64,000 nt of DNA from Planctomycetales bacterium (GTDB lineage: Bacteria; Planctomycetota; Phycisphaerae; SM23-33). The notes under the pieces were generated by a model. That model ran no database searches. It was not told the origin of the DNA and saw nothing but the letters and a program-made list of their open reading frames with translations. The translations under genes were made by a program, and so were the position numbers. The stretch's first letter is position 1, and the number at the start of each line of letters is the position of its first letter. Of this stretch, positions 25,700-57,309 are shown piece by piece. Where the stretch lies: contig JAUWNJ010000016.1 of assembly GCA_030612725.1 (NCBI GenBank), positions 1-64,000 on the forward strand. Direction: 5' to 3'.

Positions 25700-25790
25700 A
25701 CAGATTTACGCCGCATCATAGGAAACAGCACGTCGCGTCGCAATTTTTTCTTGACCGAGCGCATCGGCGCGACCAAACTCACATGAAGAT

Positions 25791-25913
25791 AGCGGTCAGC
25801 AATCAGCGTTCAGCAGTCAGCAAAAGACAAAACAACAAAATCCGCGTCTGACCGTTTGTTGCTCCTTCATCTTTTGCTGAACGCTGATTGCTGATCGCTG
25901 ATTGCTGATTGCT
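25791..25913. repeat. Word-repeat hairpin element (CAATCAGC words)
   Basis: The left arm (25791-25826) and right arm (25871-25913) are complementary series of CAATCAGCGTTCAGCA words ending in AAAAG/CTTTT next to the centre. The right arm runs to within 6 nt of the start codon at 25919 and displaces any ribosome-binding site there. It lies between two divergent genes. Confidence 0.85.
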
Positions 25914-25918
25914 AAATC

Positions 25919-29905: not shown

Positions 29906-30541
29906 ATGTTGACCGCATCGGCCAATCCGCTGAATGCCAATGTGTTAATGCTGAACAAGCATTATGCCGCCATTCGCATCATTCCCGCCCGCCGGGCGTT
30001 CAGCCTGCTGTACCGCAACCTTGCCGAAGTCGTCAGCATGGAGGACGACCAGTATCTGTCATACGATTTTAACTCCTGGCGAGAGGTAAGCGAGTTTCGC
30101 TCCCGGTACCAGCGTGACGGGCACGATTGGATCCGCTGCGTGCGGTTCGAGATTGCCGTACCGTGGATTGTAAGACTGATGTTCTACGATCGCCTGCCAC
30201 AACAGAGGGTCAAGTTCAATCGCAGGAACATCTACGCCCGCGACCACAGCCACTGCCAGTACTGCGGGAAACGCTTTCCGCTGCCCGAACTTAGCCTGGA
30301 CCACATCGTACCCCGAAGCCTCGGCGGAAAGGCCACCTGGGACAACGTCGTGTGCTGCTGTGTCGCGTGCAACGTCCGCAAAGGCGGAAGGACGCCAAGG
30401 CAGGCCGGTATGAAACTTATTACTACACCGGTCAAGCCGAAGCGTTCGCCTGTGATCCAGGTGCAACTGACGGGGGAAAAATACGCTTCCTGGAAGCAAT
30501 TCCTCAACGCCGCATACTGGAACGTGGAATTAAAAGAGTGA
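29906..30541 (+). CDS. HNH endonuclease-family protein
   Basis: A 211-residue protein. The HNH zinc-finger nuclease core is complete: CQYCGKRF, then LSLDHIVPRSLGGKATWDNVV, then a CCCVACNVRKGG second Cys pair. An N-terminal domain (to about 105) precedes it and a short tail follows. Standalone genes of this type are frequent in planctomycetes, and whether they act in DNA repair or in mobile-element biology is not known. It is predicted leaderless. The stop codon borders the nested hairpin element. Confidence 0.88.
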   Translation: MLTASANPLNANVLMLNKHYAAIRIIPARRAFSLLYRNLAEVVSMEDDQYLSYDFNSWREVSEFRSRYQRDGHDWIRCVRFEIAVPWIVRLMFYDRLPQQRVKFNRRNIYARDHSHCQYCGKRFPLPELSLDHIVPRSLGGKATWDNVVCCCVACNVRKGGRTPRQAGMKLITTPVKPKRSPVIQVQLTGEKYASWKQFLNAAYWNVELKE

Positions 30542-30758
30542 TTGTCAATTTCCGATTTTCAATTGACAAAGAGGAAGAAGAAAAAGAAGAGGAAGAAAAA
30601 GAAGATAGCGGGATTTCGGGGATTACTGGATTATGGGGATTGCAATCTTGTGAGAAGAAGAAAAAGAAAAAATCCCTGTAATCCGGTAATCCCTGAAATC
30701 CTGCTATTCTGTTTTTCTTTTTTTTTGTCAATCGAAAATCAAAAATCAAAAATCGGAA
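30541..30758. repeat. Nested word-repeat hairpin element
   Basis: Two hairpins sit one inside the other. Inner arms 30603-30641 and 30671-30710 are complementary series of GGGATTACTGGATT words. Outer arms (about 30543-30568 and 30726-30758) are complementary series of TTTCCGATTTTC words, one of them with an extra word copy. Purine-rich DNA between the left arms pairs with the T-run between the right arms. The whole 218 nt can fold into one long stem. It separates the convergent HNH and DUF1571 genes. Confidence 0.88.
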
Positions 30759-30759
30759 A

Positions 30760-31617
30760 TTATTTCAACTTCATCCCATTGGCTTTGGGCGTGAAGTCGT
30801 TTTCGGTCAGACCGACGTTGAATTCCACGTTGCTGTAGGAATATCGGCATGTTTCCTGGTCGTCCCAGTCTTTGGCCTTCAGTCCTATGGGGACGAGATG
30901 ATCGACATCAAGGTACCAGACGGTGGTTTTTGCGGGGTAGTCTTTTTTCGGCGGGAGGACGCGTTTGAGGACCATTACCTTGTGGGCCTTGGTCTTGTAT
31001 CCTTCGAATGTGAATTTTCCCTCGCCCCGACTTACTGCCAGTTCGTTCACTTTCAGAAGACTTTCCATTAAGCGTTTGAATCCGAAGAGCGTAACGGGTT
31101 TGCGTGTGTTGGCCATGGCGTCGGGTCCGTCGGGGGCACGTTTCACCGTACCGACCAGCGCCCCCAGGAATCCCTTGGGCTTGACCAGCATCTGCCCGCT
31201 ATATTTTCCTTCGATGTATAGTACCCGCTCGCCGGCGGGGGCGTTTTTCGTCCATCGCATCGCCACGGAGAACGGCTGATCGAGGAATTTTACCTGAATT
31301 TCCTGCTCTTTGCGGAATTTACCATTAATCCGCTCGTGCTTGGTAAATGTGCAGGTGTAATCCTGATAACTCTTGCTGTAATTTACCAATGCCTGCTTCA
31401 GGAGGGTTACATGGTCGGACCCGGCCAGACGTTCCAACTCCTTAAGCCGATCCTGGGAAACGCTCACACCCGGACTCCCTGCAATGGCCGTTACCTCCAT
31501 GCTGCTTCGGAAAGCCTCATGCTGAGTGCATTGAATGCAGAACATCGTCGCCAGCAGGATACCGACAACCAGGCGAATGCGATTATTTGTAGGGCGAATA
31601 ATTCGCTTTAGCACCAT
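30760..31617 (-). CDS. DUF1571-family lipoprotein-like protein
   Basis: A 285-residue protein. A signal segment (RLVVGILLATMFCIQC) suggests export with a possible lipobox Cys. The body has the DUF1571 pattern common in planctomycetes (YSKSYQDYTCTFTKHERINGKF, PFSVAMRWTKNAP, RVLYIEGKYSGQMLVKPKG), a curved beta-sheet resembling LolA-type lipoprotein carriers. A role in lipid or lipoprotein handling at the envelope is inferred from fold only. It is convergent with the HNH gene across the nested hairpin. Confidence 0.8.
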   Translation of the reverse strand: MVLKRIIRPTNNRIRLVVGILLATMFCIQCTQHEAFRSSMEVTAIAGSPGVSVSQDRLKELERLAGSDHVTLLKQALVNYSKSYQDYTCTFTKHERINGKFRKEQEIQVKFLDQPFSVAMRWTKNAPAGERVLYIEGKYSGQMLVKPKGFLGALVGTVKRAPDGPDAMANTRKPVTLFGFKRLMESLLKVNELAVSRGEGKFTFEGYKTKAHKVMVLKRVLPPKKDYPAKTTVWYLDVDHLVPIGLKAKDWDDQETCRYSYSNVEFNVGLTENDFTPKANGMKLK

Positions 31618-34933: not shown

Positions 34934-34951
34934 TATTTTAATCTCTCAAAA

Positions 34952-35044
34952 AATCAGCAGGGATGCAGGGGATACAGGGGATAAGGAGTAAATAAAAAAA
35001 AGAAAAAGTTCTTATCCCTTGTATCCCCTGCATCCCTGCTAATT
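34952..35044. repeat. Word-repeat hairpin element (GGGATGCAGGGGATAC words)
   Basis: Arms 34952-34985 and 35011-35044 are reverse complements at 32 of 34 positions. Each is made of GGGGATACAGGG words. The centre is A-rich. It lies between the heparinase-like start and the lemA stop, on a stretch transcribed in one direction. Confidence 0.9.
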
Positions 35045-35060
35045 CTGTTTGTGTTTGCCC

Positions 35061-54665: not shown

Positions 54666-54728
54666 AACAAGTAGCCCGAAATAATGTTAAACAGCACTCC
54701 CGATAATAGAACCCAGCCGCCATCGAAA

Positions 54729-54862
54729 AAATATAGCGGGATTACAGGGATTACCGGATTATAGGGATTTATTTTTTTCTTTTTTTAATCCTGCTATTTT
54801 TTCTTCTTTTTTAAACAAGATTAAAATCCCCGTAATCCAGTAATCCCTGTAATCCCGTTATT
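54729..54862. repeat. Word-repeat hairpin element (GGGATTACAGGGATTACC words)
   Basis: The left arm 54729-54770 and right arm 54824-54862 are complementary at about 35 of 40 positions. The arms are built of GGGATTACAGG words. The centre is T-rich. Same words as the inner arms at 30603 and the element at 57329. It lies between the TPR gene start and the hisG stop. Confidence 0.88.
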
Positions 54863-54890
54863 CTGTTTGTTTTTTCTTCTTCTTTCGTAA

Positions 54891-55778
54891 TCAACTAATC
54901 ACCTTGTTGAGCGGATAGGTTATTATCCCGGTCGCTCCGGCCCGTTTGAGTTGTGGGATCATCTCGCGTTCGAGACGTTCGGATACTATCACTTCAAGGG
55001 CGACCCAGTCCTCATCGGCGAGGTTGGAAACAGTCGGGCTTTTCTCGGCGGGGAGCAAACTCAGAACGCCCTGGAGGTCCGTACGTCGGACGTTCATCTT
55101 CAGTCCGACCTTTTCCCATGCGGAAATCGCCCCTTGCAGCAGCAGTGAGATGTTTTCGATCTTTTCGCGCTTCCACGGGTCCGACCATGCCGCTTTGTTT
55201 GCGATTAACCGGGGCGTGGAAAAAAGAATCGTATCAATAACACGCAGGCGGTTGGCACGGAGGCTCGAACCGGTCTCGGTTACATCGACGATGGCATCGA
55301 CCAGGCGGGCCTTGACTTCCGTAGCGCCCCAACTGAACTCGACCTTAACGTCTATCCCTTTGTCGGCGAAGTACTTGCGAGTAGTGTTGGCCAGTTCCGT
55401 CGCGACGATACCACCGGCAAGAGCGGAAGCGTCCATTATCTCGGATTCTTCCGGTACAGCCAGTACCCACTTGACCGATTGGAGGTTGCGTTTGGCATAG
55501 ACGAGTTCCGCCACCTCTACGACGTCGGATTCGTTCTCTGCAATCCAGTCGTTTCCGGTTATTCCGATGTCGATAACGCCGTCGGCGACGTATCGGCTCA
55601 TCTCCTGAGCGCGGAACATCACAGCAGTGATGTCCGGGTCGTCCACTGATGGGAAATAACTGCGCGACGAGATCGAAACCCTGAATCCCGCCCGCTTGAG
55701 CAGTTCCACCGTGCTGTCCTGTAATGAACCCTTGGGGATTCCCAGTGCGAGTTTTTGCTCTGACTTCTTATCAATCAC
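54891..55778 (-). CDS. hisG: ATP phosphoribosyltransferase, long form
   Basis: A 295-residue enzyme for the first step of histidine synthesis (ATP plus PRPP). The catalytic domain ([31 protein letters not shown]) is followed by a C-terminal ferredoxin-like HisG_C domain (from about 225), so it is the homohexameric long form that needs no HisZ and is His-inhibited. The start is GTG with GGAG 8 nt upstream. No other his genes lie nearby. Confidence 0.95.
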
Positions 55779-56755: not shown

Positions 56756-56767
56756 AAGGCTCACATC

Positions 56768-56939
56768 CTAATTCCACGAATTACACAAATTACACAAATT
56801 TTCAAAAACATTGTTTTAGATGCAACACCAATTACAGGACGACTTTTTCCTGTTTTTATATAATCTGTGTAATCTGTGGACCACTATTCTTTTTCTTCTT
56901 CTCTTACGTCCGTGCAATCCGTGTAATCCGTGGACTGTT
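56768..56939. repeat. Word-repeat hairpin element (AATTACACAAATT words)
   Basis: The left arm (56772-56800) repeats AATTACACAA. Complementary right-hand words (TAATCTGTGTAATCTGTGG at 56861-56880, and again 56910-56937) lie on the other side, the latter inside the 3' end of rbfA. The element encodes the tail of RbfA (STDYTDCTD). Confidence 0.75.
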
Positions 56940-57309
56940 CCGTTTCTTCTTCTTTTTCCCTGATTTCGTCCATTGCCTGTCGTATAACATTCAGTGTTTC
57001 CAGTGTTTTTTTGAACTGGTGGTCGATTTCGAACTCCAGTATGGGCATATGCCGCAGGGTTACATTGTCCCGCACGATTGCCCGTATTCGTCCAGCCGCC
57101 CTTTCCAGCGCCTTGATGCAGCGTTGCTGTTGGGCCTGGGTTCCTATAATCGAAATATAGACCTTTGCTCTGACGAGGTCTTCGGTGGCTTCTACCCGCG
57201 TAATCGAGGTTCGCGCCGAATCGATCCTCGGATCGGCCAGTTTTCCAAGAAGCACCTTCCCGACTTCATGCTGAAGCAGTTTTCCGATACGTTCTGTTCT
57301 ACGATTCAT
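56884..57309 (-). CDS. rbfA: Ribosome-binding factor A
   Basis: A 141-residue KH-like protein that helps mature the 30S subunit, binding near the 5' end of 16S rRNA. The core (RIGKLLQHEVGKVLLGKLADP, ITRVEATEDLVRAKVYIS) is normal. The last 20 residues, including STDYTDCTD, come from the word-repeat element and are not part of the family. It is the last gene of the nusA-infB-(ylxP)-rbfA cluster, separated from the ylxP remnant by another element. Confidence 0.93.
   Translation of the reverse strand: MNRRTERIGKLLQHEVGKVLLGKLADPRIDSARTSITRVEATEDLVRAKVYISIIGTQAQQQRCIKALERAAGRIRAIVRDNVTLRHMPILEFEIDHQFKKTLETLNVIRQAMDEIREKEEETEQSTDYTDCTDVREEEKE

Follow-up and report, generated by a model that had tools for sequence, protein, structure and literature searches.

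The window analysed here is a 64-kb (64,000-nt) stretch of the genome G000 of an uncultured planctomycete, which belongs with G001, G002, and G003 to one genus; all compared genomes are MAGs. In the window, an HNH endonuclease gene, with orthologues in the relatives, and a gene for a DUF1571-family, lipoprotein-like protein converge on a gap occupied throughout by a single long, imperfect inverted repeat (Table 1). The outer arms of the repeat consist of degenerate 7-nt words of the form RATTNNY, and its inner arms consist of 38 nt of 8–9-nt GGGATT words. The outer arms extend into the stop codons on both sides. Specifically, the HNH stop codon, TGA at 30539–30541, overlaps the first outer word (a T followed by GATTGTC supplies the TGA), and the right outer arm ends where a T followed by AATTTCC, on the other strand, supplies the TAA stop codon of the DUF1571 gene. 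The right outer arm reads GTCAATC GAAAATC AAAAATC AAAAATC GGAAATT on the + strand and AATTTCC GATTTTT GATTTTT GATTTTC GATTGAC on the − strand. Left and right differ at 5 of 37 positions in the inner layer and at 2 of 31, plus gaps, in the outer layer, and every inner-arm mismatch in G000 leaves a G-U pair on the + strand.

Table 1. Coordinates of the genes and repeat features in the window.
Feature	Position	Strand	Basis and remarks
HNH endonuclease gene	29906–30541	+	ORF; Pfam HNH_5 E 5e-18, HNH E 3.5e-13
Left outer arm	30540–30567	+	Four heptamers, GATTGTC AATTTCC GATTTTC AATTGAC; inverted-repeat pairs
Purine (GA) tract, ~36 nt, partly tandem doubling	30568–30603	+	Pairs with the right pyrimidine tract
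Left inner arm, GATAGCGGGATTTCGGGGATTACTGGATTATGGGGATT, 8–9-nt GGGATT words	30604–30641	+	Sequence, inverted repeat, family members
Terminal loop, A/G-rich, 29 nt	30642–30670	+	Sequence, inverted-repeat search
Right inner arm	30671–30708	+	Reverse complement of the left inner arm, 32/37 positions match
Pyrimidine (T-rich) tract	30709–30726	+	U-tract-like tail of the inner stem on the + strand
Right outer arm	30727–30761	−	Five heptamers; ends at the DUF1571 stop
DUF1571-family, lipoprotein-like gene	30760–31617	−	ORF; Pfam PF07608 E 2e-41
Second slot	56759–56943		L213, L227, L241; outer-only, nested, and inner-type-only among relatives

The nested hairpin is real, and its fold lies far beyond chance. 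The RNA fold of 30521–30778 has an energy of −100.2 kcal/mol (z = −10.3), which none of 200 shuffles equalled, and no hairpin nested within another, both having arms of at least 14 nt, arose in 500 dinucleotide shuffles. In the minimum-energy fold of 30541–30758, 144 of the 218 nt are paired, and the left purine tract is longer than the pyrimidine tract that it faces and bulges. A preliminary description of this DNA had proposed two word classes nested in one stem of about 218 nt, purine-rich DNA opposite a T-run, and an extra word copy in one outer arm; the fold, the facing tracts, and the five right words versus four left words bear out each of these points. A simple terminator scan, which allows only loops of 3–8 nt, does not list the nested hairpin, and a search of Rfam at gathering score gave no match for it, the matches in the window being SSU rRNA, RNase P, and one tRNA. 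Elsewhere in the window, 1–64 and 240–421 contain a cluster of strong GC-rich hairpins that fall outside the word type.

The inner unit belongs to a hairpin family whose members are dispersed. At E ≤ 1e-5, GGGATT matches (whole and partial) number 47 in G000, 28 in G001, 97 in G002, and 72 in G003, figures that exceed the number of copies because a single copy often matches more than once, through its two arms or through tandem pieces. Among the 34 genomes of the order searched outside the genus, one further genome of the family has 14 matches and the other 33 have none. Many members are single hairpins with GA/CT tracts like those of the nested unit, laid out as GA tract, TAGCGGGATT words, loop, reverse words, and CT tract, and 11 full copies share a consensus stem of 36 pairs, with compensatory change at 4 of the pairs. 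A further GGGATT hairpin is present at window positions 54666–54897 (L213) in G000, G002, and G003, while the G001 gap is cut to 3 bp; the absence of the element from G001 at 54.67–54.90 kb looks like an imprecise deletion because G002 and G003 have it. In terms of MITE features, the family has inverted arms, the sole empty site is this deletion-like one, and no true empty target site and no target duplication were found among the relatives compared. Outer-type hairpins without nesting are present in G000 at C11:2977 (L152), C18:52530 (L154), and C61:103510 (L162), in the first of which the words enclose a GA and a CT tract. The two word classes exist apart from each other.

Comparison of the orthologous HNH/DUF1571 gap, which three genomes cover (G000, G002, and G021; no G001 or G003 contig spans it), reveals a shared outer shell with differing contents. 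In the congener G002 (MAG CSMAG_432; DUF1571 protein identity 82%), the gap contains the nested form with changed words, and the stem has A-C and other mismatches. In the more distant G021 (CSMAG_1105), both flanking genes are present, with protein identities of 85% (HNH) and 76% (DUF1571), and the left outer arm lies at the corresponding position in all three genomes. The left shell of G021 reads, after a T, GATTGGC AATTGCC AATTTCC AATTTTC AATTTCC AATTGGA, and the right shell, in reverse complement, reads AATTTCC AATTTCC AATTTCC AATTGGA; its 28-nt arms match at 26 of 28 positions and lie 386 nt apart. There is no GGGATT unit inside the orthologous gap of G021. Instead, the interior contains a small hairpin of heptamers along with three more palindromes, placed one within another; in this gap (L112:3637–4092), a GTAACAGGCCCCCGCTTTAGCGGGGG pair surrounds a CCCCTTTTTCTCTTTCCCGCCCC hairpin. 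Since G000 and G002 have the nested form and G021 has the shell with other palindromes, the shell is shared and its contents are lineage-specific. Words have changed unit by unit. The tree of 2.1 kb of nearby DNA, ((G000,G001),G002),(G003,G021), is unrooted, and the direction of change, gain in G000/G002 versus loss and replacement in G021, is read from this tree and three genomes.

We surveyed hairpins in 854 kb (27%) of G000 by an ungapped search for arms of at least 16 nt. The survey yielded 189 hairpins and 9 nested pairs. Counting intergenic hairpins within the loop of another, we observed 8, compared with 7.8 expected under the assumption of uniform placement in intergenic DNA, and nesting therefore needs no targeting of insertion to hairpin centres. 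Words of period 7 are found in 41 and words of period 9 in 21 of the 133 arms, whereas shuffles give about 1.4 of each (1.3 for period 7), so that 62 of 133 arms have one or the other period versus about 3 in shuffles. Hairpins in tandem gaps lie a median of 19 nt after the stop codon and 77 nt before the next start, and hairpins are scarcer in divergent gaps (17% versus 33–37% elsewhere, Fisher p = 0.002), counts that are approximate because gene calling relied on a simple hexamer script.

Orthologous arms differ at 6–8% of positions, and the two arms of one hairpin differ at 13%. Orthologous arms are more alike than paired arms, and the arms are therefore not being made alike at present, which argues against a general process of arm homogenisation through template switching. 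The hairpins appear, from these mismatch levels, to start imperfect and then to drift. Two G000 hairpins, C10:13019–13297 and C61:105393–105548, have a ~20-nt insert identical in both arms, a mini-palindrome of the CGTAG-N5-CTACG type, which suggests that copying from arm to arm happens at times. The C61:105393–105548 insert recurs at several other places, some beside GAATATT-type words. In addition, C61:51896–52099 and C10:13019–13297 contain GTAG-tagged REP-like dimers (GTAGGCTGGGACGG...) whose loop encloses a heptamer hairpin of the GAATATT type.

A second slot of the window, at 56.76–56.94 kb, has outer-only, nested, and inner-type-only states among the relatives. The outer-only state, a CCACGAATTACAC-type hairpin, is that of G000 and G021; G003 is nested, with outer arms as in G000 around a GGTAATTGG hairpin; and G001, whose nearby DNA is 95% identical to that of G000, has an inner-type hairpin alone (GGTAATTGG/GGTAATTCG-type). 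These states fit no single series on the tree because G000 is outer-only and its closest relative, G001, is inner-type-only. Two other positions in the window also differ between relatives: at 34939–35059 (L225), a GGGATRCAG hairpin occupies the gap in G000 and G002, and in G003 the gap contains a tandem TATGCCC heptamer array; at 25749–25918 (L219, L224), where G000 has an AATCAGC-word hairpin, G002 and G003 instead contain different, longer DNA that may comprise short genes.

With respect to function, the stem at the locus is followed directly 3′ by a U-rich tract on both strands, as in an intrinsic terminator, and from this layout the nested stem could end transcription of both the HNH and the DUF1571 genes. 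A general terminator role does not extend to the sampled G000 hairpins, which have no 3′ U-tract excess (T content of 0.33 3′ of tandem-gap hairpins versus 0.39 at the mirror position). Selection at the RNA level finds no counterpart in them either, G-U and A-C mismatches being about equally common (71 versus 59, p = 0.34). Neither layer of the nested hairpin has a GTAG or CGTC tag of the REP/REPIN type at its ends. Mobilisation of the word hairpins by RAYTs is not indicated, since hairpins within 1.5 kb of the six Y1_Tnp genes of G000 belong to other classes. Two of these genes (L209, L210; G000 C6:31.9–34.7 kb) are near-identical and RAYT-like and have AATTAAGGGGACGGAGCACTTAATTATT hairpins nearby, and AATTAAGGGGACGGAGCACTTAATTATT hairpins recur elsewhere in G000 (C9:27266).

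We consider it probable that the locus comprises intergenic repeat hairpins from two different families, one of them placed within the other's loop, with the outer hairpin older and the inner hairpin later. A heptamer-word outer hairpin (RATTNNY) would already have filled the HNH/DUF1571 gap in the ancestor shared by G000, G002, and G021. In the G000/G002 lineage, a dispersed GGGATT member with its own purine and pyrimidine flanks would have come into the outer loop, presumably by insertion rather than by de novo growth, and in G021 other palindromic elements would occupy the corresponding interior. The interior of a hairpin is intergenic and probably function-free, and arrival there would leave the outer pairing intact, so that further repeats would accumulate at the rate of random placement; gain and loss of words in 7-nt units would leave the arms different in length. 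The preliminary description had suggested that a new element arose or inserted exactly at the centre of an older one. The first part of this suggestion is supported by the G021 shell and its other contents and by the occurrence of both classes as single hairpins elsewhere, while the implied precision is not supported by a nesting count at the level of uniform placement. The composite forms a long bidirectional stem between convergent genes, with a U-rich tail on each strand, and its effect is likely to be small; the nested stem may mildly help to end transcription or to protect 3′ ends.

Three other accounts can be weighed against the same observations. The preliminary description had also offered a single copying event that mirrored the whole composite, in which one template switch would have copied a ready-made half (words, GA tract, and GGGATT words) and formed both layers together. 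The similar left–right mismatch of the two layers and the two hairpins with a ~20-nt insert in both arms, as arm-to-arm copying would leave, speak for such an event. However, the G021 shell without the inner unit largely refutes it, the inner GGGATT family is spread over the genome alone, without the shell, and paired arms differ more than orthologous arms, so that we regard a mirrored origin as quite improbable. It is rather unlikely, in turn, that the composite was selected as a bidirectional terminator or 3′-end stabiliser, with nesting favoured because it makes the stem stronger. The convergent gap with U-rich tracts after the stem on both strands, the avoidance of divergent gaps and proximity to stop codons among hairpins, and the G-U pairs left by all inner-arm mismatches in G000 are consistent with it, but the G002 stem has A-C and other mismatches, the genome-wide survey reveals neither a G-U preference nor a U-tract excess, and close relatives differ in the word class at a slot or in whether the hairpin is there at all.

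The shell whose contents differ between G000/G002 and G021, the three states of the slot at 56.8 kb, and the REP-like dimers with heptamer hairpins in their loops could also be read as signs that hairpin loops are preferred landing sites or nurseries, with nesting as a directed step in class switching. A nested count equal to the random expectation and a set of 56.8-kb states that do not follow the tree in one series make this highly improbable. A scheme in which slots keep a hairpin and exchange its word class from the inside out seems unlikely; in it, a new word hairpin would begin within the resident's loop, the composite would last for a while as the nested intermediate that is seen, and the outer arms would be lost last.

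The nested hairpin has precedents in other bacteria. The heptameric repeats of Xanthomonas (GGGAATC) and Nostoc (GGGGA(C/T)T) are degenerate and intergenic, lie 28 nt from the preceding stop codon, are rarer between divergent genes, are poorly conserved in place between species, and in 70–75 cases form convergent inverted pairs able to form a stem (PMC4692102). The planctomycete hairpins resemble them in having 7-nt degenerate words, intergenic positions near stop codons, rarity between divergent genes, inverted pairs, and positions that are little conserved between species; the STRR-like properties of tandem 7-nt units, location near 3′ ends, and rarity between divergent genes are all present, although the 7-nt unit holds for the outer layer only because the inner arms have a period of 8–9. 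They differ in having many word classes per genome, 9-nt words as well, a location mostly in hairpins, GA/CT tracts, and hairpins of different classes nested in each other. The P6b stem-loop of the Nostoc trnL intron has Class I (TDNGATT) and Class II (NNTGAGT) words with independent class replacements (PMC4476775). It is likewise a stem of degenerate heptamers with word-unit length changes on one or both sides and replacement of class, and its Class I resembles the planctomycete outer words; however, it lies within a group I intron, and its inserts make side stems rather than a second apical hairpin.

A direct precedent for the Russian-doll form, with one palindromic family at the centre of another, is provided by REP dimers within other palindromes in Anabaena variabilis (GTAG-15), T. 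roseum (GTAG-23), and H. neapolitanus (CGTC-1) (PMC3733652). The inner unit in those cases is a tagged REP, whereas both planctomycete layers are untagged word-array hairpins. A bidirectional intrinsic terminator also shares the stem flanked by purine and T-rich tracts between convergent genes, but the stem here is much longer, and U-tract excess and RNA-strand bias are absent genome-wide. Literature searches for such repeats in planctomycetes turned up only tagged REPs.

The locus is thus a case of real repeat turnover, of a sort already seen in other bacteria; new here is that a single genome has many word classes, which replace one another at fixed slots and are sometimes nested. Direct comparison of one gap in three species resolves the order of the layers of a Russian-doll hairpin. 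Gaps in this planctomycete genus swap hairpins of different word classes, and the neighbouring genes remain. Hairpins built from heptamer words are present in several phyla, and close relatives in which the flanks are conserved while the hairpins change offer a way to test how such hairpins originate.
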